64,000 nucleotides of DNA, taken from Winogradskyella vincentii. GTDB lineage: Bacteria; Bacteroidota; Bacteroidia; Flavobacteriales; Flavobacteriaceae. Numbering within the stretch: position 1 is the stretch's first letter; the number at the start of each line of letters is the position of its first letter. The stretch spans positions 62,001 through 126,000 of the forward strand of contig NZ_JAIUJS010000006.1 of assembly GCF_020166345.1 (NCBI RefSeq). Direction: 5' to 3'. Positions 2,243 through 55,801 of the stretch are shown piece by piece. A model generated the notes under the pieces. The model saw only the letters and a program-made list of their open reading frames with translations, had not been told where the DNA came from and did not search any database. Made by a program: the position numbers and the translations under genes.

Positions 2243-2605
2243 CTAACTAACAAAATTAAGAGATAATGGATAGCTAGGTAATTCCCCATTACTAGCTTTA
2301 ATAGCATTTACAATAGGCATCACAAATGCTAAAATTCCTATTAATATTAATAATAATATTCCTAAACCAAATATCAAAATTAAAGGTATACTTAAGATGC
2401 AGTATACGATGATACTTAATTGAAAATTTAAAATGGCTTTGCCATGAGCATCCATACCTTCTACATTATCCTTTTGTGTAGCCCAAAGTATTAGAGGTAC
2501 TATTAAACCTCCAAATCCAGTGATATAAGTCAATAATTGTGCTAAATGCGTAATCATTAACATCTGATTGTCTGTACGTTTAAGTGTGTGATAATTTGAT
2601 TCCAT
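2243..2605 (-). CDS. DUF4870 domain membrane protein
   Basis: A 120-residue protein whose core (MLMITHLAQLLTYITGFGG, PLILW, then KAILNFQLSI and a long hydrophobic pair ending in NAIKASNGE) matches the DUF4870/Tic20-like family of small integral membrane proteins. Three to four membrane segments are visible around residues 17-40, 55-75 and 75-105. I place the start at the ATG at 2605. A longer reading from 2635 would begin at TTG and add ten residues unlike the family. It follows the RND pump operon by about 58 nt on the same strand and may be read from it or alone. The molecular role of the family is unknown. Confidence 0.8.
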   Translation of the reverse strand: MESNYHTLKRTDNQMLMITHLAQLLTYITGFGGLIVPLILWATQKDNVEGMDAHGKAILNFQLSIIVYCILSIPLILIFGLGILLLILIGILAFVMPIVNAIKASNGELPSYPLSLNFVS

Positions 2606-2663
2606 TTCTTGATTGTTTACATTGATATGACGCAAATAATCTAAATATGTTACACTTCAAATA

Positions 2664-2849
2664 TTAATTTTTAACTCCCAATTTTTCTAATATGGTATCC
2701 ATTAAACACCATTTAGTTATGGAAGACTGTAATAAATTAGCACCGACAAAAGCTGTAAACCACAGCCAATTTTGATTTACGTAAATCGCTAACAGTAAAC
2801 TGATTAAAATAAATGTGCCCGCTACCGCTCTAACAATTCTATTTTTCAT
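2664..2849 (-). CDS. DUF2892 (YgaP-like) inner-membrane protein
   Basis: A 61-residue protein with two hydrophobic helices (about residues 8-25 and 28-45). The motif GANLLQSSITKWC is the hallmark of the DUF2892 domain, which in proteins such as YgaP forms the membrane part next to a rhodanese domain. Here the rhodanese is a separate gene 8 kb away (10986-11345) with the same operator. It starts 8 nt after the RND pump gene, so it is the last gene of that operon. The family usually has FTGFCP where this protein has ITKWCL. A link to sulfur transfer or stress handling is inferred from context only. Confidence 0.8.
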   Translation of the reverse strand: MKNRIVRAVAGTFILISLLLAIYVNQNWLWFTAFVGANLLQSSITKWCLMDTILEKLGVKN

Positions 2850-2857
2850 AATGTATT

Positions 2858-5800
2858 TTATTTATAATTCTTTCTTTCAATTAAATAATAAACCAATGGA
2901 ACCACCAATAAGGTCAAGAAGGTTGAAACTATAGTTCCACCCATTAGCGAGATTGCCAAACCTTGGAAAATAGGATCGAATAAAATTACAAAGGCTCCTA
3001 TTACAACCGTTCCAGCAGTTAATAATATTGGTGTAGTTCTTACGGCACCAGCTTCTATAACCGCTTGCTTAAGTGGAATTCCTTCATCTAATCTAAGATT
3101 AACAAAGTCAATCAACAACACGGAATTTCGCACCATAATTCCTGCAAGTGCAATCATACCAATAAATGAGGTTGCCGTAAAAAATGCTCCTAACATCCAA
3201 TGCCCTAAAACTATACCAACTAATGATAATGGTATAGCAACCATCATAACCACAGGCGCCTTGAAGTTTTGGAACCAGCCCACAATAAGTATATAGATAA
3301 TTATGATAACACCTAAGAAGGCAATACCTAAATCTCTAAATACTTCCAATGTAATTTGCCACTCACCATCCCATTTTACTGTATAATCATCTTCAAATTC
3401 TGGCTGTTTTATATAGAGCTCATCCATATTGTAGCCTTTAGGCAAATCTATTCCCTGTAGTTTATCAGACATTCCTAAAATGGCATAAACCGGACTCTCT
3501 AACTCACCAGCCATATCTGCCATGATATAAACTACTCGTTTTTGGTTTTTGCGGTATATGCTCTTTGGTTTGACACCTTCTTCAATAGTAACCAAATCAA
3601 TTATAGGGACTAAATTTCCATGTTTTGATTTTACTTTTATACTTGCAATATCCTGTAATGTTGATTTTTCATTTTCATCTAAAGTCAACACCAATCCTAC
3701 TTGATTAGAGGCGTCCTCATCATACAAATGAGTAATGGCTTTATTAGACAATGCCATATTCATAGTATGTGTAATTTGTTGCGGTGCTACACCGTTTAGC
3801 ATAGCTTTTTCCTTGTTTATTTTAAAATTGAATTCTTTTTGATTGGCCTCTACCATCCAATCAATATCCACGACATCATTAGTTCGCTTTAAAATCTCTT
3901 GAATAGAATCACCAACCCTAATTTGTTCATTATAATCTGGACCATAAACTTCTGCCACAATCGTTGAAAGAACTGGAGGTCCAGGTGGAACTTCTACTAA
4001 TTTAACATTGGCATTATATTTTGATGCTATAGCCTGAATTTCCGGACGTAGTAACTTTACAATATCGTGGCTTTGAGCTGATCTATCGTGCTTATCTGTG
4101 AGATTTACTTGGATATCTGCCATATTACTACCTCCACGTAAATCATAATGGCGTACCAATCCGTTGAATGTAATCGGCGAAGATGTGCCAACATAACTTT
4201 GATAGTTAACAACCTCAGGTCGTGTTGCCAAATATTGCCCAATTTCTTTAGCAACAACAGCAGTACGTTCTAACGTTGTACCCTCAGGCATATCAATTAC
4301 CACCTGAAATTCATTCTTATTATCAAACGGCAACATTTTAACCGCCACAGTCTTTGTAAAAAATAATCCAACTGAACCCAATAATAAGATGAATGTTATA
4401 CCCAAGAAAAGCCAGCGCTTGGTTTTATTCTCAATAAGTGGAGTTTCAAATTTTGAATAAATTTTGAATATAGTTGAATCTGAAATACCTGCAGTTTCAT
4501 CTTCAGAAATTACTTCTACTTTTTTATCCTTTTCCCTTAAGAAAATATAACCCAAATATGGCGTTATAGTTAGCGCGACAAATAATGACAGTAACATCGC
4601 TATAGAAGCTCCTATTGGCATTGGGCTCATGTAAGGCCCCATTAATCCTGAAACAAATGCCATAGGCAATACAGAGGCTATAACTGTAAATGTTGCCAAT
4701 ATGGTTGGATTACCTACCTCATTGATTGCATAAAGAGCTGCTTCTTTAAATGGTAAGCGCTTCATTTTAAAATGCCTATGCATATTTTCTGCAATTATGA
4801 TGGAATCGTCAACAACGATACCTGTAACAAAAACTAATGCAAACAGTGTAATTCGATTTAAAGTATAATCCAATAAATAATAACTCAATAATGTAAGGGC
4901 AAATGTTATTGGCACAGAAAGAAACACCACTAAACCACCACGCCATCCCATAGCCAACATTACAACTATGGTTACTGCGATTATAGCACCTATTAAATGC
5001 AGGAGTAACTCAGACACTTTTTGTGAAGCTGTTTCACCATAGTTTCTTGTAATTTCTATGTGTACATCATCTGGAATTAAATTAGTTCTGAGATAATCAA
5101 CCTTCTCAATAATAATATCAGAAATCTTCATTGCATCAGCACCTTTGCGCTTCGCTACTGAGATGGTTACTGCTGGGTATTCTGATTTGAATTCATGTAT
5201 TTTTTCACTAGCGGAGCCAAATCCTAAACTCACATAATTAACAGGGATTTCTGGACCATCTACAACCTCAGCAATCTGACCTAGATAAATAGGTTGATTT
5301 TGATATACGCCAACTACAAGATTTTCGACATCCTCCTTAGTCTTTAGGAATTCTCCTGTTTTTATTAAAAATTCATTGTCATTTCTATCAAAACTACCAG
5401 AACTCAACTGTTGATTGTTCACTCTTATCATTTCAGCGACGGAAAGGAAGTCTAATTCACTAGAAGCCAATTTATTCTTATCTATCACGACTCTCAGCTC
5501 ACGATTTCTTCCTCCAATTTTATGAGTTATTGCAACATCATTAACTTTTTCGATTTCATCAGTCAATTCTTGTGCAATCTGTTTTAACATATAGTCGTCA
5601 TATTTTTCACTCCATAATGTTAACCCAAGCATCGGAACATCATCAATAGCACGCGTTTTAACCAATGGAAACGTTACGCCTTGTGGCATTTGATCCATAT
5701 GCTTATTAATCTCATTGTAAAGCTTAACAATAGAACGTTCTATATCTTCACCAACATAAAATTGCACGATAACCATACCTTGTTCTTGCATAGAGGTAGA

Positions 5801-6058
5801 ATAGACATACTCTACACCTTTTATATTTGAGAATAGCTTCTCTAGTGGTTTTATAACTCTAGACTCAACTTCCGTCGGACTCGCACCTGGATATCCAACA
5901 AAAATATCCGCCATCGGTACGTCTATCTGAGGTTCTTCTTCCCTTGGAATAAGAAATGAACTATATACACCAATGACCATAAATACAATCATTAAAAGCA
6001 CTGTAAGCTTAGAACTTATAAAGCCTTTGGCAATCTTTCCTGCTAACCCTTCTTTCAT
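2858..6058 (-). CDS. Efflux RND transporter permease subunit (AcrB/CusA superfamily)
   Basis: A 1066-residue inner-membrane pump of the resistance-nodulation-division superfamily, at the expected length. An N-terminal membrane helix (about 12-33) is followed by the porter motif region (GYPGASPTEVE), a six-helix block around 345-545, a second large periplasmic region and a second helix block near the C-terminus. The proton-relay pair Asp417-Asp418 sits in GIVVDDSIII. The DD pair and overall pattern resemble drug-type (HAE) pumps more than metal-type CzcA pumps, but the substrate cannot be read from sequence. It is third in the operon tolC-adaptor-pump-DUF2892, 36 nt after the adaptor, and should form the tripartite efflux complex with those two proteins. 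Confidence 0.93.
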   Translation of the reverse strand: MKEGLAGKIAKGFISSKLTVLLMIVFMVIGVYSSFLIPREEEPQIDVPMADIFVGYPGASPTEVESRVIKPLEKLFSNIKGVEYVYSTSMQEQGMVIVQFYVGEDIERSIVKLYNEINKHMDQMPQGVTFPLVKTRAIDDVPMLGLTLWSEKYDDYMLKQIAQELTDEIEKVNDVAITHKIGGRNRELRVVIDKNKLASSELDFLSVAEMIRVNNQQLSSGSFDRNDNEFLIKTGEFLKTKEDVENLVVGVYQNQPIYLGQIAEVVDGPEIPVNYVSLGFGSASEKIHEFKSEYPAVTISVAKRKGADAMKISDIIIEKVDYLRTNLIPDDVHIEITRNYGETASQKVSELLLHLIGAIIAVTIVVMLAMGWRGGLVVFLSVPITFALTLLSYYLLDYTLNRITLFALVFVTGIVVDDSIIIAENMHRHFKMKRLPFKEAALYAINEVGNPTILATFTVIASVLPMAFVSGLMGPYMSPMPIGASIAMLLSLFVALTITPYLGYIFLREKDKKVEVISEDETAGISDSTIFKIYSKFETPLIENKTKRWLFLGITFILLLGSVGLFFTKTVAVKMLPFDNKNEFQVVIDMPEGTTLERTAVVAKEIGQYLATRPEVVNYQSYVGTSSPITFNGLVRHYDLRGGSNMADIQVNLTDKHDRSAQSHDIVKLLRPEIQAIASKYNANVKLVEVPPGPPVLSTIVAEVYGPDYNEQIRVGDSIQEILKRTNDVVDIDWMVEANQKEFNFKINKEKAMLNGVAPQQITHTMNMALSNKAITHLYDEDASNQVGLVLTLDENEKSTLQDIASIKVKSKHGNLVPIIDLVTIEEGVKPKSIYRKNQKRVVYIMADMAGELESPVYAILGMSDKLQGIDLPKGYNMDELYIKQPEFEDDYTVKWDGEWQITLEVFRDLGIAFLGVIIIIYILIVGWFQNFKAPVVMMVAIPLSLVGIVLGHWMLGAFFTATSFIGMIALAGIMVRNSVLLIDFVNLRLDEGIPLKQAVIEAGAVRTTPILLTAGTVVIGAFVILFDPIFQGLAISLMGGTIVSTFLTLLVVPLVYYLIERKNYK

Positions 6059-6094: not shown

Positions 6095-7186
6095 TTAATT
6101 AATAGTTAGTTTGGCTCCATTATATAATTTCTCATCAGAAGACAAGATGTAAGATTCATTTTGAGTCAAGCCAGATAATACTTCCACTTGGTCACCAAAG
6201 GTCTTTCCAAGTCGTAACCAACGTAATACTGCAGTTTGTTGTTGACTTACGGTATAAACACCTGATAGTTGACCGTTGGTTATTATTGCTTCAACGGGAA
6301 TCATTATGGTTTCTCCTATGTTTGAAGAATTAACCTTAGTATCTGGAAATTGAACGGATGCGAACATACCTGAACGTAATTGTTCATTTGATGCATCTAA
6401 TCCAATTTTTATAAGATATTGACCACCAGAATGTGCAGAAGAAGTACTCACTTCAGTTACCGTACCTTCGATAATAGCATCTATTGAAGACACTATAACG
6501 TTAACCTTTTCATCTTTTGAGATATATGAAATTGTAGATTCTGGTACTCGTGCTATGACCTCAAAATTATTTGGTGATTCAATGGCCAATAAAGGCATTC
6601 CAGGATTTGCTAACGCTCCTTCGTCTATAAATTTAGCTGTTAAAACACCATTAAAAGGGGCCTTCACGTTAGTGTAAGCAAATTGTGCATTGATTTCGAT
6701 TTTCATTTGCTGAGCAGACTCCAACCGAGCCTTAGCCATTTGATAGTTTGCAGTTACGTCATCAAGTTCTTTTTGAGATGCACTATTCTGATTAAATAAG
6801 TTTGTATATCTATTAAAGTCTTTTTCTGCAATATTTAACGCAGCTTTTGCTTCAGTAATACCAGCACTTACTTGCGCTCTTTTAGCCTGTAAATCACTAT
6901 TATTGATTACCATAAGCACTTGTCCTTTATTGATTTTATCGCCTACTTTCACGGCTATTCGCTCTACATGGCCCATTATGCGAGTGCTCAGTTGTGCACT
7001 ATTCTCAGCTTCTATAGTACCGCTAACTACTAATGGAGCATTTGTCTTATTTGCTGTAACCGTTGCTACTTTTACCTCAATTTTTTTAGAATTATCCGCA
7101 GATATTTCTTTTTTACTTTCACCACAACTGAACACTCCTAGTATTAAACCAATTGCTAGTAATTTATATATGGATTTTTTCATCAT
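6095..7186 (-). CDS. RND efflux periplasmic adaptor (membrane fusion protein), lipoprotein
   Basis: A 363-residue protein with a lipoprotein signal (LGVFSC, Cys21). A barrel-sandwich (lipoyl-like) half around residues 60-95 (MGHVERIAVKVGDKINKGQVL) is followed by a coiled-coil hairpin (about 95-160, LNIAEKDFNRYTNLFNQNS) and then the second lipoyl half (AFAYTNVKAPFNGVL). A beta-barrel and membrane-proximal domain complete it. This is the HlyD/AcrA-type order. It bridges the inner-membrane pump and the TolC-like channel. There is only 1 nt between it and the tolC-like gene upstream, so the two are co-transcribed. ATG occurs twice at the start; either could be used. Confidence 0.93.
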   Translation of the reverse strand: MMKKSIYKLLAIGLILGVFSCGESKKEISADNSKKIEVKVATVTANKTNAPLVVSGTIEAENSAQLSTRIMGHVERIAVKVGDKINKGQVLMVINNSDLQAKRAQVSAGITEAKAALNIAEKDFNRYTNLFNQNSASQKELDDVTANYQMAKARLESAQQMKIEINAQFAYTNVKAPFNGVLTAKFIDEGALANPGMPLLAIESPNNFEVIARVPESTISYISKDEKVNVIVSSIDAIIEGTVTEVSTSSAHSGGQYLIKIGLDASNEQLRSGMFASVQFPDTKVNSSNIGETIMIPVEAIITNGQLSGVYTVSQQQTAVLRWLRLGKTFGDQVEVLSGLTQNESYILSSDEKLYNGAKLTIN

Positions 7187-7187
7187 T

Positions 7188-8501
7188 TTAATTTGTTGTT
7201 AAAAATTTTAAATATGCTTTGGTGCCATTATATTCATAAATGGTTTGGAAATATTCTAACTGTTTCTGTGCATATTGAGTTTCTGCCATTAACAAATCAG
7301 CTGTTCTTTCCAGTCCTTCCTTAAATCTATTTGTTCTAATTCTCAGTGCCTCTTGGGATTGCTCAACCGCTTGCTGTGACAATTGAACTTTTAGAGATGC
7401 ATCTTCAAGCATTCGCTCAGTTTTGTTCAGCTCTAGTTTACTTTTAGAAACATATTGGTCATACTCCAATTTTGATTTCTCCAATGATGCTTTTGCTTTC
7501 TTTGTTTTACTGAATCGTTTTGTTCCTTGAAGGATATTCCACTTTAATTCTGCACCAAACAAATAACCATCAGCACCAAATTGAAAAAGATTATCATCAT
7601 ATAACTGGTAACTACCAAAAGCATTTAAAGTTGGTAAAAAGGTCATTTTATCTGACTTGTATAATGTCTCCATTGCATTTGTTGCCAGTTGCATGGCCTT
7701 AATGTCAGATCTATTTTCAGAAACTTCGCTTTCTGCATTTAATATTTTATTATCCAATTGCAAACTATCAACAGGTTGAAAAATTACTTCCGACTTATCG
7801 TTCATTAAAAAGGACAAATAATTAGAGGCGTTTTTTACATTACTCTTGGCAGATTGTAACTGATTTTTTATTTCAGTGACCCTTAATTCTACAAGTAATA
7901 CGTCAGATCGTTGTAAATATCCTTGATCAAAACTGTTTTGTGCAAGTTGCAAATTTGATGTAGCCGCAGTTAAGGCTTTTTCCAATACTGTAATGGCTTT
8001 ATATGCTAATTGTAATTGCATATAAGCATTTTCAACCTCATACTTTACAAAATCTCTTATACGCTCTGATTGTAATGCTGTAGCATCCATTTTATACTTG
8101 GCTGCTTTTCGTTGATAAAACCCATCTGCATTAATTAAGGGTTGTTGAAATTCAAAAGCAGTAGCAAAATTTTGTATTTGGCTTGGATCATTAAGCACAT
8201 CAGGATTAAAATCTGCTTGAGCAACAATCTCTTGATTTAGTTTAGATCCAAAAGCCATCAATGGATTCGTAGTTGCTATTGCAGTATGTGAAACTGAAAT
8301 ATTTGGTAAAAAAACAGCATTAGTCTGTTTGTAATCAGCTTTTGCTTCATTGAAGGCCTCAACTGAAATCTTTATTTTATGATTTGCCTCTGAAACTTTA
8401 TTAAATACTTCTGACTTTGAAATTGGTTGTACCTCTTGTGCATAGAGGTTAGTAACTAAACCAATTGCAAAACATGCTATGAGAAATCTATTCTTGTACA
8501 T
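7188..8501 (-). CDS. TolC family outer-membrane efflux channel
   Basis: A 437-residue protein with a signal peptide (about 1-22, ending NLYAQ). Long alternating alpha-helical stretches are rich in Gln, Ala and Asn, in two homologous halves (SAANSNLQLAQNSFDQGYLQRSD-type and EALRIRTNRFKEGLERTADLL-type repeats), as in the outer-membrane factor family. It is the first gene of the pump operon. Its promoter (8520-8527) is preceded by the GTAAC-N4-GTTAC dyad shared with two other transcription units. The product should provide the outer-membrane exit duct for the adaptor and RND pump encoded next. Confidence 0.92.
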   Translation of the reverse strand: MYKNRFLIACFAIGLVTNLYAQEVQPISKSEVFNKVSEANHKIKISVEAFNEAKADYKQTNAVFLPNISVSHTAIATTNPLMAFGSKLNQEIVAQADFNPDVLNDPSQIQNFATAFEFQQPLINADGFYQRKAAKYKMDATALQSERIRDFVKYEVENAYMQLQLAYKAITVLEKALTAATSNLQLAQNSFDQGYLQRSDVLLVELRVTEIKNQLQSAKSNVKNASNYLSFLMNDKSEVIFQPVDSLQLDNKILNAESEVSENRSDIKAMQLATNAMETLYKSDKMTFLPTLNAFGSYQLYDDNLFQFGADGYLFGAELKWNILQGTKRFSKTKKAKASLEKSKLEYDQYVSKSKLELNKTERMLEDASLKVQLSQQAVEQSQEALRIRTNRFKEGLERTADLLMAETQYAQKQLEYFQTIYEYNGTKAYLKFLTTN

Positions 8502-8519: not shown

Positions 8520-8563
8520 CAAAATTAAGCCCATAGAAGATTATGCTTCGTAACAAAGGTTAC
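8520..8563 (-). promoter_or_regulatory. Promoter and putative CRP/FNR-type operator of the tolC-RND operon
   Basis: On the minus strand a perfect -7 element TAATTTTG lies at 8520-8527, 19 nt before the tolC-like ATG. The dyad GTAAC-N4-GTTAC (spacer AAAG as read on the plus strand) lies at 8550-8563. Its centre (8556.5) is 36.5 bp from the downstream end of the -7 element, about -41 from the likely start, which is where class II activators of the CRP/FNR family bind. The same dyad and distance recur at 9443-9486 and 11364-11407. Confidence 0.7.
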
Positions 8564-8603
8564 CTTCAGCATTTATTATTCCTTAACCATGCGTGTTATG
8601 AAA

Positions 8604-8652
8604 TAAAAAAAGAGCACCTTTAATGGTGCTCTCCTCTAATGGTGCTCTCCTC
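8604..8652 (-). terminator. Terminator of the peroxiredoxin gene with a tandemly duplicated arm
   Basis: Read on the minus strand, the stem GAGCACC / GGTGCTC is followed by a run of about eight T, as in an intrinsic terminator. The 16-bp unit TAATGGTGCTCTCCTC is perfectly duplicated in tandem on the plus strand (8621-8636 and 8637-8652). Two alternative 5' arms can therefore pair with the single 3' arm. Confidence 0.8.
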
Positions 8653-8689
8653 ATAGAAACAAATATTACCCATACCTTTAATTCAAACC

Positions 8690-9415
8690 TTAGGATTCTA
8701 TTATTTCATCTAAGACTTTTTCTTTGTTTAACTTTTTTGTACAGAAAAACCAATCTTTACATTCTAAGTCATCAGTGTTAGTCATACGCTCTTCAGCTAC
8801 ACCACATGAGCCTGCCGGTGAAATAATTACGTCATTACCAGGTTCCCAATCTGCAGGTGTTGCTACATTAAATTTATCTGAAGTTTGCATTGCTATCAAT
8901 GCTCTATATATTTCATCAAAGTTTCTTCCTAAACTAAGCGGATAATAGATAACAGCTCTTACTGTACTTTCTGGATCTATAAAAAAGACTGCCCTTACAG
9001 CTTGTGTTTTGTGCTCGCCAGGTTGAATCATACCATACTTCTTGGCAACATTCATTGTAATATCTTCAATTAAAGGAAATTTTACTTCAATATCCTTCAT
9101 GCCATTAAATTCAATTTTGTCCTTAATTGTTCTTAACCAAGCAATATGACTATATAGTCCATCTACAGAAAGACCTACAAGTTTACAATTAGCCTTAGCA
9201 AATTTTTCTTCTAGGTGGGCAAAGGTCATGAACTCTGATGTACAAACAGGCGTGAAATCCGCAGGATGGCTAAATAAAATCACCCATTTTCCTTTATAAT
9301 CTGATGGGAAATTAATCTCACCTTGTGTTGTAATTGCTTTGAATTCTGGTGCCTTATCACCTATTCTAGGCATTGAAAAACCAATTTCTTTTTGTGAAAT
9401 ATCGCTAGTTTCCAT
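8690..9415 (-). CDS. Peroxiredoxin (AhpC/TSA superfamily, Prx6-like)
   Basis: A 241-residue thiol peroxidase. The active-site motif HPADFTPVCTSE places the peroxidatic cysteine at Cys58 with Thr55 and Pro51. Residues around YSHIAWL and YPLSLGRNFDEI match the Prx6/archaeal-type group, which has a long C-terminal domain. Three more cysteines near the end (Cys204, 219, 225) could act in resolution, as in archaeal relatives. It reduces hydrogen peroxide or organic peroxides, and no secretion signal is seen, so it is cytoplasmic. It has its own promoter with the shared GTAAC-N4-GTTAC operator and its own terminator. Confidence 0.93.
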   Translation of the reverse strand: METSDISQKEIGFSMPRIGDKAPEFKAITTQGEINFPSDYKGKWVILFSHPADFTPVCTSEFMTFAHLEEKFAKANCKLVGLSVDGLYSHIAWLRTIKDKIEFNGMKDIEVKFPLIEDITMNVAKKYGMIQPGEHKTQAVRAVFFIDPESTVRAVIYYPLSLGRNFDEIYRALIAMQTSDKFNVATPADWEPGNDVIISPAGSCGVAEERMTNTDDLECKDWFFCTKKLNKEKVLDEIIES

Positions 9416-9442
9416 ATCGTTATAGTTTTTTAATTAATACGG

Positions 9443-9486
9443 TAAATTTAGTTATCAAATTAACAATACTGTGTAACGTTTGTTAC
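9443..9486 (-). promoter_or_regulatory. Promoter and putative CRP/FNR-type operator of the peroxiredoxin gene
   Basis: The dyad GTAAC-GTTT-GTTAC lies at 9473-9486. A -7-like element TAAATTTA (7 of 8 to TAnnTTTG) is at 9443-9450. The dyad centre (9479.5) is 36.5 bp from the downstream end of the element, identical to the tolC and rhodanese promoters. A second candidate -7 element (TTAATTTG, 9456-9463) is closer to the dyad and does not keep this spacing. Confidence 0.65.
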
Positions 9487-9520
9487 CTCAAATCATTGAA
9501 TTTTGACCCAAAATGAAACA

Positions 9521-9550
9521 AAAAAAGCGCACAAATAATTGTGCGCTTTA
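9521..9550 (-). terminator. Terminator of the 49-residue membrane protein gene
   Basis: AAAAAAGCGCAC and GTGCGCTTT flank an 8-nt loop. On the minus strand the hairpin ends in a T-run. It begins 23 nt after the stop codon of the small gene at 9574-9723, which supports that gene being real and separately transcribed. Confidence 0.8.
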
Positions 9551-9573
9551 AAAAACGATAAATAATTTTTTAA

Positions 9574-9723
9574 TTAGTTGCTATTAGTCTTGTCCTTTCC
9601 TTTTCCACTGGTCATGAAATTAACCAATATACCAATTAAAATAACACAAACTAGACCAAATACCGCTATCATTATAACTCCATTGGTCCAATCATATAGT
9701 AAAGTTGTTAAGGCACTAAACAT
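9574..9723 (-). CDS. Small single-pass membrane protein, 49 residues
   Basis: An ATG at 9723 opens a 49-codon frame ending in TAA at 9574. The product has an N-terminal segment MFSALTTLLYDWTNG, one strongly hydrophobic helix (about residues 16-37) and a short hydrophilic tail GKGKDKTNSN. This inside-positive layout suits a small inner-membrane protein. It is flanked by a -7-like element (TAATTTTA, 9748-9755) and a clear terminator (9521-9550), so it looks like a genuine monocistronic gene. I do not recognise the family. Its position between two units that share an operator, and the weak dyad upstream at the same distance, suggest it belongs to the same response. Confidence 0.72.
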   Translation of the reverse strand: MFSALTTLLYDWTNGVIMIAVFGLVCVILIGILVNFMTSGKGKDKTNSN

Positions 9724-9747
9724 ATATTTCTTTTTTGATTCTTGATG

Positions 9748-9791
9748 TAAAATTAATCGAAGAATTCCTCTATAAATATGATAATTGTCAG
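9748..9791 (-). promoter_or_regulatory. Promoter and degenerate dyad upstream of the small membrane protein
   Basis: TAATTTTA at 9748-9755 matches 7 of 8 positions of TAnnTTTG. A dyad TGAT-AATT-GTCA (9779-9790) is centred at 9784.5, exactly 36.5 bp from the element, as in the three strong sites. It matches GTAAC-N4-GTTAC at only 5 of 10 positions, so binding by the same regulator is uncertain. Confidence 0.4.
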
Positions 9792-9919
9792 TAAATAAAA
9801 AGTAATTTAGATTTAGTAATTGAAGCTATAAAACTCATATGTATATTATAATAGATTGAATTTTATTTGTCAATTTATTACTTCATAAAAAAACAATATC
9901 ATAATTCTTGAAATTGAAT

Positions 9920-10978
9920 TTATAACTTATCCGTAAATTCTATATCCCAAATTCCCCTTACTTGATTAACGTTATAACCAATTGCTTTGTCATTAGGATA
10001 CAAGGTCGCCAATCGGTCTAAAACTCTAGGTTCAATATTTTCAGTTGGTTTTCCGTGACATTGTAGACACATAGAGTTTGTTACAATTGGATAATAAACA
10101 TTAACGCTGCTATTATTTTCTGTGATAATTGGCTGTACTTCAATACCAGCCTTTAAATCATTCTTAAATTTTTCTATATAAGTCAACTCAGTCTTACTGG
10201 CTAAATTTCGAATATTTCTGGGTTTGTCTGATATCCGTTTTATTCGAGCATTATGAACAACGGCCATACTATCAGTTAGTGGAAGGGCCCTCTCATTGCA
10301 AAAATTTAGCGCTTCAAGTGTTCCTTTTTTTTGAATGGTTTTCATAAGGTTTTTGCCCAGAACTGCTTTCGTTGATAATGCATATTTCAATCCTCTTTCA
10401 GAATAAGGTAAATCCTTTATATTTGTTTGGGACTGCTTTTGATGCATTCCTTTTCCCTTACCTTGCCCCATTCCTTTTCCTTTATTCGATCCTTGATGTT
10501 TGCCCATGCCATTTCCTTTACCCGTTCCTTGGTGCTTTCCCTTTTCCTCGTTGAAGTGCTCCTCAAACCATTCAGGTTGTTCAATTTCATGGTCAAACAT
10601 GTAATCAGCTATTTGTTCAATAGTTTCTATGGGAAACGCTTGTTTAGGCATTACTCCAAATCGTCTAACTGCACCTCTCATTTTAGCATCATCTTCATTT
10701 GGGTTATTGATCCAAGCTTTCATATCATTGACAAACTGCTCCTTGGTTGTCTCTTCATTGATATAATGGTTTTTTATAGCGATCATGGGTGGTCCTATTC
10801 TATCATCATGACTTGCCGTAGGACTATGACATACATAACAATTGGTCTCCATAAGTTTTTTACCTGGATGTTTGCTAGCAGTTAATTCTTTATCAAAGGC
10901 AGACAAATCTTTATTCTTAGAATCATTGCAACTCAAGGTAAAAATTAATATCAATCCAATAACAATAAACTGTTTCAT
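9920..10978 (-). CDS. Cytochrome c / DUF3365 (Tll0287-like) haem lipoprotein with Gly-Lys linker
   Basis: A 352-residue exported protein. The signal peptide ends at a lipobox (FTLSC, Cys17). Domain 1 (about 35-135) is a class I cytochrome c with the haem motif CYVCH (47-51) and a likely axial Met110 in GVMPKQ. A low-complexity linker (about 145-185) is made of Gly, Lys, His, Gln and Met. Domain 2 (about 188-350) has a second haem motif CLQCH (304-308) and matches the DUF3365/Tll0287-like family of haem sensors or redox proteins. It follows the rhodanese gene by 7 nt, so the two form an operon. It should be a periplasm-facing or surface lipoprotein carrying two haems; its redox partner is unknown. 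Confidence 0.85.
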   Translation of the reverse strand: MKQFIVIGLILIFTLSCNDSKNKDLSAFDKELTASKHPGKKLMETNCYVCHSPTASHDDRIGPPMIAIKNHYINEETTKEQFVNDMKAWINNPNEDDAKMRGAVRRFGVMPKQAFPIETIEQIADYMFDHEIEQPEWFEEHFNEEKGKHQGTGKGNGMGKHQGSNKGKGMGQGKGKGMHQKQSQTNIKDLPYSERGLKYALSTKAVLGKNLMKTIQKKGTLEALNFCNERALPLTDSMAVVHNARIKRISDKPRNIRNLASKTELTYIEKFKNDLKAGIEVQPIITENNSSVNVYYPIVTNSMCLQCHGKPTENIEPRVLDRLATLYPNDKAIGYNVNQVRGIWDIEFTDKL

Positions 10979-10985
10979 ATTTTAA

Positions 10986-11345
10986 TTATTTATAATTTAG
11001 TATGCCACCCTTTAAATCGTAGATTTCTTTAAAACCCATAGTTTCGAGTTTTTTTGACGCCTCTCCACTACGTACTCCACTTCTACAATATATATAGACA
11101 GGTTCATCTTTATTTAACTTATTGAACTCTATACCAAAGCTGTTAGAATTGAAATCAATATTTCTCGCCCCATTTATGTGACCAGAATTATATTCTTTTG
11201 GGGTTCTAACATCTATAAGCTGTACTTGTTTATTATCTACTTGTTCTTTAAACTCTTTAGGTGTAAGCACTTTAACAGTATCGCTTTGAGAGCCATTACA
11301 GGCAATTAAAGAAGTAATGAATGATAGAATAACTATAATTTTCAT
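10986..11345 (-). CDS. Rhodanese-like lipoprotein (sulfurtransferase)
   Basis: A 119-residue protein with a lipoprotein signal (SLIAC, Cys16) and one rhodanese domain. LIDVRTPKEYNSGHINGA is the first signature and YIYCRSGVRS the active-site loop, with catalytic Cys87. Rhodaneses carry sulfur as a cysteine persulfide; this one would act outside the cytoplasmic membrane. I start at the ATG at 11345. A longer reading from 11429 begins upstream of the inferred transcription start (it spans the operator and -7 element) and would bury the signal peptide. It is first in a two-gene operon with the cytochrome c/DUF3365 gene. Confidence 0.9.
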   Translation of the reverse strand: MKIIVILSFITSLIACNGSQSDTVKVLTPKEFKEQVDNKQVQLIDVRTPKEYNSGHINGARNIDFNSNSFGIEFNKLNKDEPVYIYCRSGVRSGEASKKLETMGFKEIYDLKGGILNYK

Positions 11346-11363
11346 AAATAAAATAATCTTCAT

Positions 11364-11407
11364 TAAAATTAAGGTATTAACCAATAGTGCTAAGTAACGA
11401 ATGTTAC
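11364..11407 (-). promoter_or_regulatory. Promoter and putative CRP/FNR-type operator of the rhodanese-cytochrome operon
   Basis: The dyad GTAAC-GAAT-GTTAC is at 11394-11407 and the -7-like element TAATTTTA (7 of 8) at 11364-11371. The centre-to-element distance is again 36.5 bp. This arrangement also decides the rhodanese start: the ATG at 11363 directly abuts the element, so the ATG at 11345 is preferred. Confidence 0.7.
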
Positions 11408-54712: not shown

Positions 54713-55801
54713 ATGGCAAAAAAGCAATTATTGACAAAAAAGTCAATGGACTTTTTAGAGAAATATCTAAATAATGCATCACCAACTGGTTATGAATGGG
54801 ATGGGCAAAAACTCTGGATGGATTACTTAAAACCTTATGTTGATGAGTTTATTACAGACACCTATGGTTCTGCTGTAGCTGTAATTAATCCAAAAGCAAA
54901 ATACAAAGTAGTTATTGAAGGACATGCCGATGAAATTTCATGGTATGTCAATTATATTTCAGATAAAGGGCTTTTATATGTGATAAGAAATGGTGGAAGT
55001 GATCATCAAATTGCACCTAGTAAAATAGTAAATATCCATACTAAAAAAGGCATTGTAAAGGGTGTATTTGGCTGGCCAGCAATTCATACTAGAAGTAGAG
55101 CTAAAGAAGAACCACCAAAACCAGATAATATTTGTATTGATATAGGTGCCAAGGATAAAGCTGAAGTTGAAAAAATGGGTGTCCATGTAGGCTGTGTAAT
55201 AACCTATCCGGACGAGTTTCATATTTTAAATGGAGATAAATTTGTTTGTCGTGCTTTAGATAATAGAATGGGCGGATTTATGATTGCTGAAGTTGCTCGT
55301 TTACTGCACCTTAATAAAAAGAAATTACCATTTGGCCTATATGTAACTAATTCTGTACAAGAGGAAATCGGCCTACGAGGTGCAGAAATGATAACACAAA
55401 CCATCAAACCAAATGTTGCCATAGTAACAGATGTTACTCACGATACAACGACTCCAATGATTGATCAGAAGAAACAAGGATATGCAGAAATTGGTAAAGG
55501 TCCAGTCGTGGCGTATGCACCAGCGGTTCAACAAAAACTAAGAGATTTAATAACAGATACTGCAGAAGAAAAGAAAATACCTTTCCAACGTGCCGCTTTA
55601 TCTAGAGCAACAGGAACAGATACAGATGCTTTTGCCTATAGCAATGGTGGTGTGGCTTCTGCCCTAATATCATTACCACTAAGATATATGCATACAACTG
55701 TAGAGATGGTGCATAAAGAAGATGTAGAAAATGTTATTAGGTTGATTTATGAAACGCTTCTAAAAATAGAAGATGGAGAAACCTTTAGTTATTTTAAATA
55801 A
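54713..55801 (+). CDS. M42 family metallopeptidase (glutamyl aminopeptidase/endoglucanase-like)
   Basis: A 362-residue enzyme. VIEGHADEISWYV carries the first metal ligands, RALDNRMGGF the bridging Asp, and NSVQEEIGLRGAEM the catalytic Glu pair. GTDTDAF and the late YMHTTVEMVHKEDVENV are also conserved in M42. The enzymes are cytoplasmic, cobalt- or zinc-dependent aminopeptidases that often form dodecamers. The gene is followed directly by a strong terminator. Confidence 0.95.
   Translation: MAKKQLLTKKSMDFLEKYLNNASPTGYEWDGQKLWMDYLKPYVDEFITDTYGSAVAVINPKAKYKVVIEGHADEISWYVNYISDKGLLYVIRNGGSDHQIAPSKIVNIHTKKGIVKGVFGWPAIHTRSRAKEEPPKPDNICIDIGAKDKAEVEKMGVHVGCVITYPDEFHILNGDKFVCRALDNRMGGFMIAEVARLLHLNKKKLPFGLYVTNSVQEEIGLRGAEMITQTIKPNVAIVTDVTHDTTTPMIDQKKQGYAEIGKGPVVAYAPAVQQKLRDLITDTAEEKKIPFQRAALSRATGTDTDAFAYSNGGVASALISLPLRYMHTTVEMVHKEDVENVIRLIYETLLKIEDGETFSYFK

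Follow-up and report, generated by a model that had tools for sequence, protein, structure and literature searches.

The analysed window, 64,000 nucleotides (nt) of Winogradskyella vincentii contig NZ_JAIUJS010000006.1 (positions 62,001 to 126,000), carries three neighbouring units on the minus strand, an efflux operon, a peroxiredoxin (Prx) gene and a rhodanese-DUF3365 operon, whose promoters share the inverted repeat GTAAC-N4-GTTAC (Table 1). An initial annotation had assigned these repeats, hereafter dyads, to a probable CRP/FNR-type regulon, and we followed up this proposal by computational analysis of the window, of the whole genome and of related genomes. A DUF4870 gene (window 2243-2635) lies directly downstream of the YgaP-like gene and is a possible further member of the efflux operon.

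Table 1. Promoter elements and genes of the three units, in window coordinates.
Feature	Unit	Position	Strand	Sequence or length	Remark
Operator	Efflux operon	8550..8563	-	GTAACCTTTGTTAC	Exact dyad
-7 element	Efflux operon	8520..8527	-	TAATTTTG	22 nt past operator
TolC-like outer-membrane efflux protein	Efflux operon, gene 1	7188..8501	-	437 amino acids	Named by eye and by position beside adaptor and permease
RND periplasmic adaptor	Efflux operon	6095..7186	-	363 amino acids	TIGR01730 above cut-off
RND permease	Efflux operon	2858..6058	-	1066 amino acids	RND permease models matched, none above NCBIfam cut-off
YgaP-like transmembrane protein	Efflux operon	2664..2849	-	61 amino acids	PF11127 above cut-off; DUF2892 in the initial annotation
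Operator	Prx gene	9473..9486	-	GTAACAAACGTTAC	Exact dyad
-7 element	Prx gene	9443..9450	-	TAAATTTA	22 nt past operator
Peroxiredoxin (Prx)	Prx gene	8690..9415	-	241 amino acids	NF009668 above cut-off
Operator	Rhodanese-DUF3365 operon	11394..11407	-	GTAACATTCGTTAC	Exact dyad
-7 element	Rhodanese-DUF3365 operon	11364..11371	-	TAATTTTA	22 nt past operator
Rhodanese-domain protein	Rhodanese-DUF3365 operon	10986..11345	-	119 amino acids from ATG	PF00581
Cytochrome c and Tll0287-like (DUF3365) protein	Rhodanese-DUF3365 operon	9920..10978	-	352 amino acids	PF00034 and PF11845 above cut-off

All three dyads were confirmed as exact, and at each of them the distance from the dyad to a TAnnTTT(G/A) box (the gap) is exactly 22 nt on the minus strand, so that the identical geometry first described was reproduced. 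The assignment of this box to the -7 element, like the place given below to the -33 box, follows the Bacteroidetes promoter consensus. Chance occurrence was evaluated by a first-order Markov simulation of the window in 400 runs, which returned a mean of 0.035 exact dyads per window and no window with a dyad and box at gap 22, against four dyads and three such units in the real one, in agreement with the view that coincidence is very unlikely. The fourth dyad (55424-55437) lies within an open reading frame (ORF) of 362 codons and is without a box.

The recurrence of this arrangement was then assessed in 119 Flavobacteriaceae genomes, which were searched for homologs of the target genes and of the regulator described below. 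The best loci were taken (TolC, 30 of 52 genomes; DUF3365, 30 of 51; sulfite dehydrogenase, 30 of 31; regulator, 30 of 115), each set including the window's own genome once. Among 313 strand-wise exact dyads in the relatives' loci, 104 showed the box at gap 22, while the next best gap accounted for only 6. The efflux promoter was the most constant, with a dyad (up to two mismatches) and box within 350 bp of the TolC start in 30/30 loci, all at gap 22, and an exact dyad in 28/30. By the same measure the unit occurred in 14/30 Prx promoters (exact dyad in 11/30 loci), 9/30 sulfite dehydrogenase promoters with the strict box (16/30), 7/30 DUF3365 loci (26/30) and 3/21 sulfide:quinone reductase loci (15/21). 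For DUF3365, a dyad and box at gap 22 lay within 1.3 kb upstream in 18/30 loci, mostly before the upstream genes of the run.

Across five target sets, GTAAC arms were counted 14-37 times per set, against a mean below 0.2 for the 59 other arm permutations. The high information content of the arms is by construction, since the arms were selected; the 22-nt spacer between dyad and box carries almost no information, and the fixed gap is therefore not explained by mere recent descent. The switch formed by operator and box recurs in many relatives of the same family. In five relatives, examination of the corresponding neighbourhoods (17-19.5 kb) showed that the efflux and DUF3365 genes are accompanied by genes for Prx, rhodanese or MBL-rhodanese proteins and by 2-6 exact dyads; four of these stretches also contain the regulator gene, which in G049 lies outside the examined stretch.

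The whole genome (3.29 Mb) contains 13 exact dyads compared with 8 occurrences of the reverse-read control pattern, and because the control comes so close the raw count says little. According to the ORF maps, 6 of the 13 are intragenic and 7 intergenic. Asking whether the dyad is equally common inside genes did not give a clean answer for the dyad itself, but the combination of dyad and box at gap 22 does discriminate, a perfect TAnnTTT at this gap being found at four of the seven intergenic dyads, namely the three window sites and L023. At L023 (C62:125959), the dyad is followed by TAACTTTT at gap 22 upstream of the genes for a sulfite dehydrogenase, for a small CXXCH-containing protein and for a protein with a rhodanese domain; the dehydrogenase is SorA-like, with a score under the equivalog cut-off. 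At L015 (C1:33591), a dyad followed by CATATTTG at gap 22 precedes a small rhodanese gene, and at L016 (C3:20877) a dyad with a different layout lies upstream of sulfide:quinone reductase, DsrC-like and DsrE-like genes. No classical nitric-oxide genes were recognised beside the six likely target sites, the genome not having been searched for such genes. Three other kinds of candidate were discarded: the L015 dyad in relation to its TetR-like side (gap 19, TAATTTTC), the L017 dyad, which lies between two genes identified by eye as rpoD and rpe and lacks a box at gap 22, and three GTRAC-N4-GTYAC genome sites (L287-L289), which lack it as well.

The intragenic dyads (6/13), together with dyad counts that in most genomes are no higher than those of the reverse-read control, might favour a chance coincidence or a low-complexity artefact. 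We assign practically no weight to this explanation, as it is already refuted by the recurrence of the unit and faces the 0/400 simulated windows, the 30/30 efflux promoters and the excess of GTAAC over the other arm permutations in the five target sets.

The regulator gene, correctly reported as absent from the window, has a candidate elsewhere in the genome. Six places in the genome match the cyclic-nucleotide-binding (cNMP-binding) domain PF00027, and one of them, located on another contig (L026:2548-3183), encodes a Crp/Fnr protein of 211 amino acids. Downstream of this gene lie genes for two sulfur transporters of the YeeE/YedE type, for TauE and for an MBL-rhodanese protein. The protein scored above cut-off with PF00027, PF13545 and PF00325, corresponding to a cNMP-binding-fold domain and a Crp-type helix-turn-helix, and its predicted structure matches full-length Crp/Fnr folds. 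Relatives of the regulator were found at 162 loci in named genomes, and the best 80 of these were inspected; identity was 59-84%, highest in Winogradskyella and lower in other Flavobacteriaceae. The regulator gene is followed by YeeE in 78/80 of them and by the MBL gene in 79/80. A unit with up to two mismatches and TAnnTTT at gap 21 or 22 was found behind the regulator gene in 55/80 and before the MBL gene in 43/80; at least one of the two cluster promoters bears it in 64/80 loci, whereas a single permuted-arm control pattern gave 0/80 in both. The gap histogram of these 80 loci has its main peak at 22, followed by 21.

A phylum-wide search with the regulator at 1e-30 matched 138 of 392 genomes and yielded 28 further loci, 25 of them from the same family. 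An exact dyad occurs within 3.6 kb in 18 of the 28, corresponding to about 188 per Mb, while other permutations average 0.08 per set; three loci come from outside the family but within its class, and in two of them (L315, L320) the dyad is accompanied by a box at gap 22. Dyad density was 1.92 per Mb in the 106 genomes with a regulator match below 1e-40 and 0.72 in the 13 without (Mann-Whitney p 7.6e-7), whereas the control pattern showed no difference between genomes with and without the regulator (p 0.13). The TolC-type gene followed the same partition, being present in 51/106 genomes with the regulator and 0/13 without when a 29%-identity match in G027 is left out (1/13 with it). Only in G041 (L157) does a sulfite dehydrogenase occur with no regulator match below 1e-40, and its promoter has no dyad, a single case consistent with the link and weakened by several regulator-bearing genomes which likewise have no dyad at this promoter.

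The alignment of the regulator comprised 111 rows, 11 of them duplicates, leaving 100 distinct sequences. The recognition helix, the part of such proteins that contacts the operator, reads SRVV in all 111 rows and in 27 of the 28 further loci. A regulator relative in G153 (L314) has the helix REAV and no exact GTAAC dyad in its locus, and perhaps uses another operator. Neither the SRVV helix nor the cysteine triad described below occurs in the genome's five remaining Crp/Fnr proteins, as identified by PF00027. The existence of these five genes leaves room for the idea that the operator belongs to one of the paralogs and that the protein of the sulfur cluster is a bystander; this is very improbable in view of the 64/80 loci with the unit beside an L026-type regulator, of the other helices of the paralogs and of the different, ATGAY-type dyad found at gap 22 near L024 and L025.

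We consider it likely that the L026 Crp/Fnr protein binds the three dyads as class II operators of a sulfur-stress regulon, with a reactive-sulfur signal received through its residues C78, C84 and C85. From the operator, its geometry and recurrence, the regulon content, the linkage with the regulator and the cysteines and helix of the latter, all of which are read directly in the DNA, we infer binding, activation in preference to repression, and the signal. A dimer of the regulator would bind GTAAC-N4-GTTAC centred at about -41, in place of the -33 box, and would recruit RNA polymerase to the TAnnTTTG -7 element. The regulon would include the regulator's own cluster (YeeE/YedE, TauE, MBL-rhodanese), sulfite dehydrogenase, sulfide:quinone reductase, several rhodaneses, the peroxiredoxin and RND efflux. 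The common operator at class II distance first proposed is confirmed and is found again elsewhere in the family, and the CRP/FNR-type regulon as a whole is supported, its genes centring on sulfur metabolism.

As for the direction of control, TTG at offsets 14-22 after the dyad start was found in only 0-3 of the 104 gap-22 promoters at each offset, which is background level, so that the operator has no visible -33 box next to it. We infer from this layout a class II activation. Repression by a regulator covering the promoter would agree with a dyad at -41 that overlaps the -33 region, and CstR and SqrR/BigR are repressors according to PMC8148161. This mode of action is nevertheless unlikely, given the background level of TTG in the spacer and a spacing exact to one nucleotide, as in class II activators.

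The three cysteines are strongly conserved, C78 and C84 occurring in 111/111 aligned rows and C85 in 110/111, and all three are present in 26 of the 28 further loci. In the predicted structure (mean pLDDT 83) residues 79-87 form a helix, and the cysteines sit at its beginning and inside it, with a pLDDT of only 66 (block 71-80) and 59 (block 81-90) around them. This stretch aligns with GELGLFEEGQERSA of CRP, the phosphate-binding cassette where CRP holds cyclic AMP (cAMP), which is not conserved in the regulator. C78, C84 and C85 would read the signal, probably a reactive sulfur species (persulfide or polysulfide), from the place of the cAMP-binding cassette. For a regulon whose genes serve to oxidise sulfide and sulfite and to transfer persulfide, the most economical solution is a thiol sensor for reactive sulfur, and the conserved cysteines may sense such species. 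In its operators and gene content, the regulon shows the combination of sulfur-oxidation and persulfide genes typical of reactive-sulfur regulators, and the regulator has the conserved, putatively reactive cysteines expected of such sensors.

The same operator and regulator could also serve a different signal, such as nitric oxide, an oxidant or sulfite, or the cysteines could hold a metal or an iron-sulfur cluster. The peroxiredoxin, cytochrome c and efflux genes are not specific for sulfur, sulfite dehydrogenase and TauE would suit sulfite, and metal binding is conceivable for three clustered cysteines. However, rhodanese, sulfide-oxidation and MBL-rhodanese genes predominate, and the absence of recognised classical nitric-oxide genes at the likely target sites, within the limit given above, also argues against it. 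We hold these alternatives to be possible, on the less probable side. The redox, reactive-sulfur or nitric-oxide response first envisaged is thus narrowed, with reactive sulfur fitting best and nitric oxide still a candidate.

Several observations weigh against the reading of the dyads as operators of a sulfur-sensing activator. The regulator cluster of the own genome shows only degenerate sites (GTAACATTTATAAC at gap 22 before TATTTTAG, and GTGATAAAAATCAC at gap 21 before TAACTTTG), and 16/80 regulator loci lack a site in either promoter examined. Exact GTAAC dyads number 14, in 11/80 named loci, compared with 10 for the best other arm permutation; they occur in only 6/30 of the best family regulator loci, and a site directly upstream of the regulator gene in only 1/30. 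Small box peaks at gaps 16 and 18 among one-mismatch sites (L036-L115) are unexplained. The group without the regulator consists of 13 genomes only, five of them smaller than 2.7 Mb, and in the 106 genomes with a regulator match the mean raw count is 6.8 for the dyad and 10.2 for the control. Conservation is uneven (Prx 14/30; sulfite dehydrogenase 9/30 by the strict box), with seven close Prx relatives (L231-L236, L255) showing no dyad unit. The absence of a -33 box is partly forced, because the -33 region overlaps the dyad. Finally, two of the 28 further regulators (L311, L312) are aligned without one or two of the cysteines, and an exact dyad is absent from both loci.

The comparison with known regulators places the protein within the Crp/Fnr superfamily and apart from CRP, NtcA and FNR. 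Its operator appears to have the two-fold symmetry and class II spacing of Crp/Fnr sites, and the protein shares domain plan and class II logic with E. coli CRP and FNR. It scored 57.1 bits against an NCBIfam equivalog cut-off of 266 for cAMP-dependent CRP, whose cassette is not conserved, and is thus not assigned to that group. The hallmark of FNR is an N-terminal cysteine cluster, whereas the regulator has a single, non-conserved cysteine (C25) before C78; no Fnr model was among its 6 NCBIfam matches, and the paralog L025 matches one below cut-off. FNR membership is accordingly not indicated. The E. coli FNR half-site TTGAT also differs from the GTAAC arm. HcpR, a Crp/Fnr regulator of Porphyromonas, is 15% identical to the regulator and recognises an operator of the TTGTGA type, unlike the GTAAC dyad. 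The best PDB sequence match was 3dv8, a solved Crp/Fnr protein listed without a stated function, which has cysteines aligned with C78 and C84, but an isoleucine at the position of C85 and the helix HREV instead of SRVV.

The arms of the dyad are nearer to the NtcA type (GTA-N8-TAC) than to the E. coli FNR type named in the initial annotation. The canonical NtcA site is given as GTAN8TAC at about -41.5 in PMC3898017. GTAAC-N4-GTTAC fits this pattern, NtcA is among the nearest solved relatives, and the recognition helix pattern R-V-x-V/I-x-R is common to both. The regulator, however, scored 52.9 bits against an equivalog cut-off of 244.95, which places it outside NtcA, and possesses the cysteine triad and a sulfur regulon, not a nitrogen one. 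CstR, SqrR/BigR, FisR, OxyR, CsoR and MarR-type proteins control sulfur-oxidation genes, several of them via cysteines, and belong to protein families other than Crp/Fnr; the excerpts of the reports describing them (PMC8148161, PMC9774590, PMC11211675) name no Crp/Fnr member. The titles and opening lines of abstracts returned by searches of open-access literature likewise mention no Crp/Fnr sulfur sensor for Bacteroidota.

The sulfide:quinone reductase promoters carry a second, FNR-like type of dyad. In the own promoter (L016:3878-3960) and in L206-L221, ATGAY-N4-RTCAT follows on the downstream side of the GTAAC dyad, and exactly 22 nt separate it from TAnnTTT. Throughout the sulfide:quinone reductase loci, the box lies at gap 22 for 18/37 strand-wise ATGAY-N4-RTCAT dyads, with at most one at any other gap; the unit is present in 12/21 loci, 8 of which have a GTAAC dyad centred 22-38 bp further upstream. 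It thus seems that two Crp/Fnr proteins control this gene.

A wider scenario would be that in Crp/Fnr activators of several Bacteroidota families the cyclic-nucleotide cassette has been turned into a three-cysteine persulfide sensor with an NtcA-like operator, and that at sulfide:quinone reductase this activator acts from an upstream position jointly with an FNR-like regulator bound in class II position, so that sulfide oxidation would be linked to sulfur stress as well as to oxygen. On this scenario our judgement is evenly balanced. Sulfated algal matter is commonly degraded by flavobacteria, for which the reading of the dyads as operators of the L026 protein would, if correct, define a sulfur regulon, together with its exact operator, a candidate for the sensor and an alignment of about a hundred promoters that can be tested. 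The fixed 22-nt gap moreover serves as a yardstick for other Crp/Fnr regulons in flavobacteria, as the second dyad shows.

Dyads of ATGAY/TTGAC type at gap 22 were also observed at L024:4285, L024:4690 and L025:6774, beside a receiver-Crp gene and an FNR-like gene; by eye their neighbours resemble UspA and a heavy-metal ATPase, and they perhaps represent an oxygen regulon. The sulfide:quinone reductase itself (L016:3995-5239) scored above the NCBIfam cut-off for 'type III, selenoprotein subtype', and its ORF has no in-frame stop.

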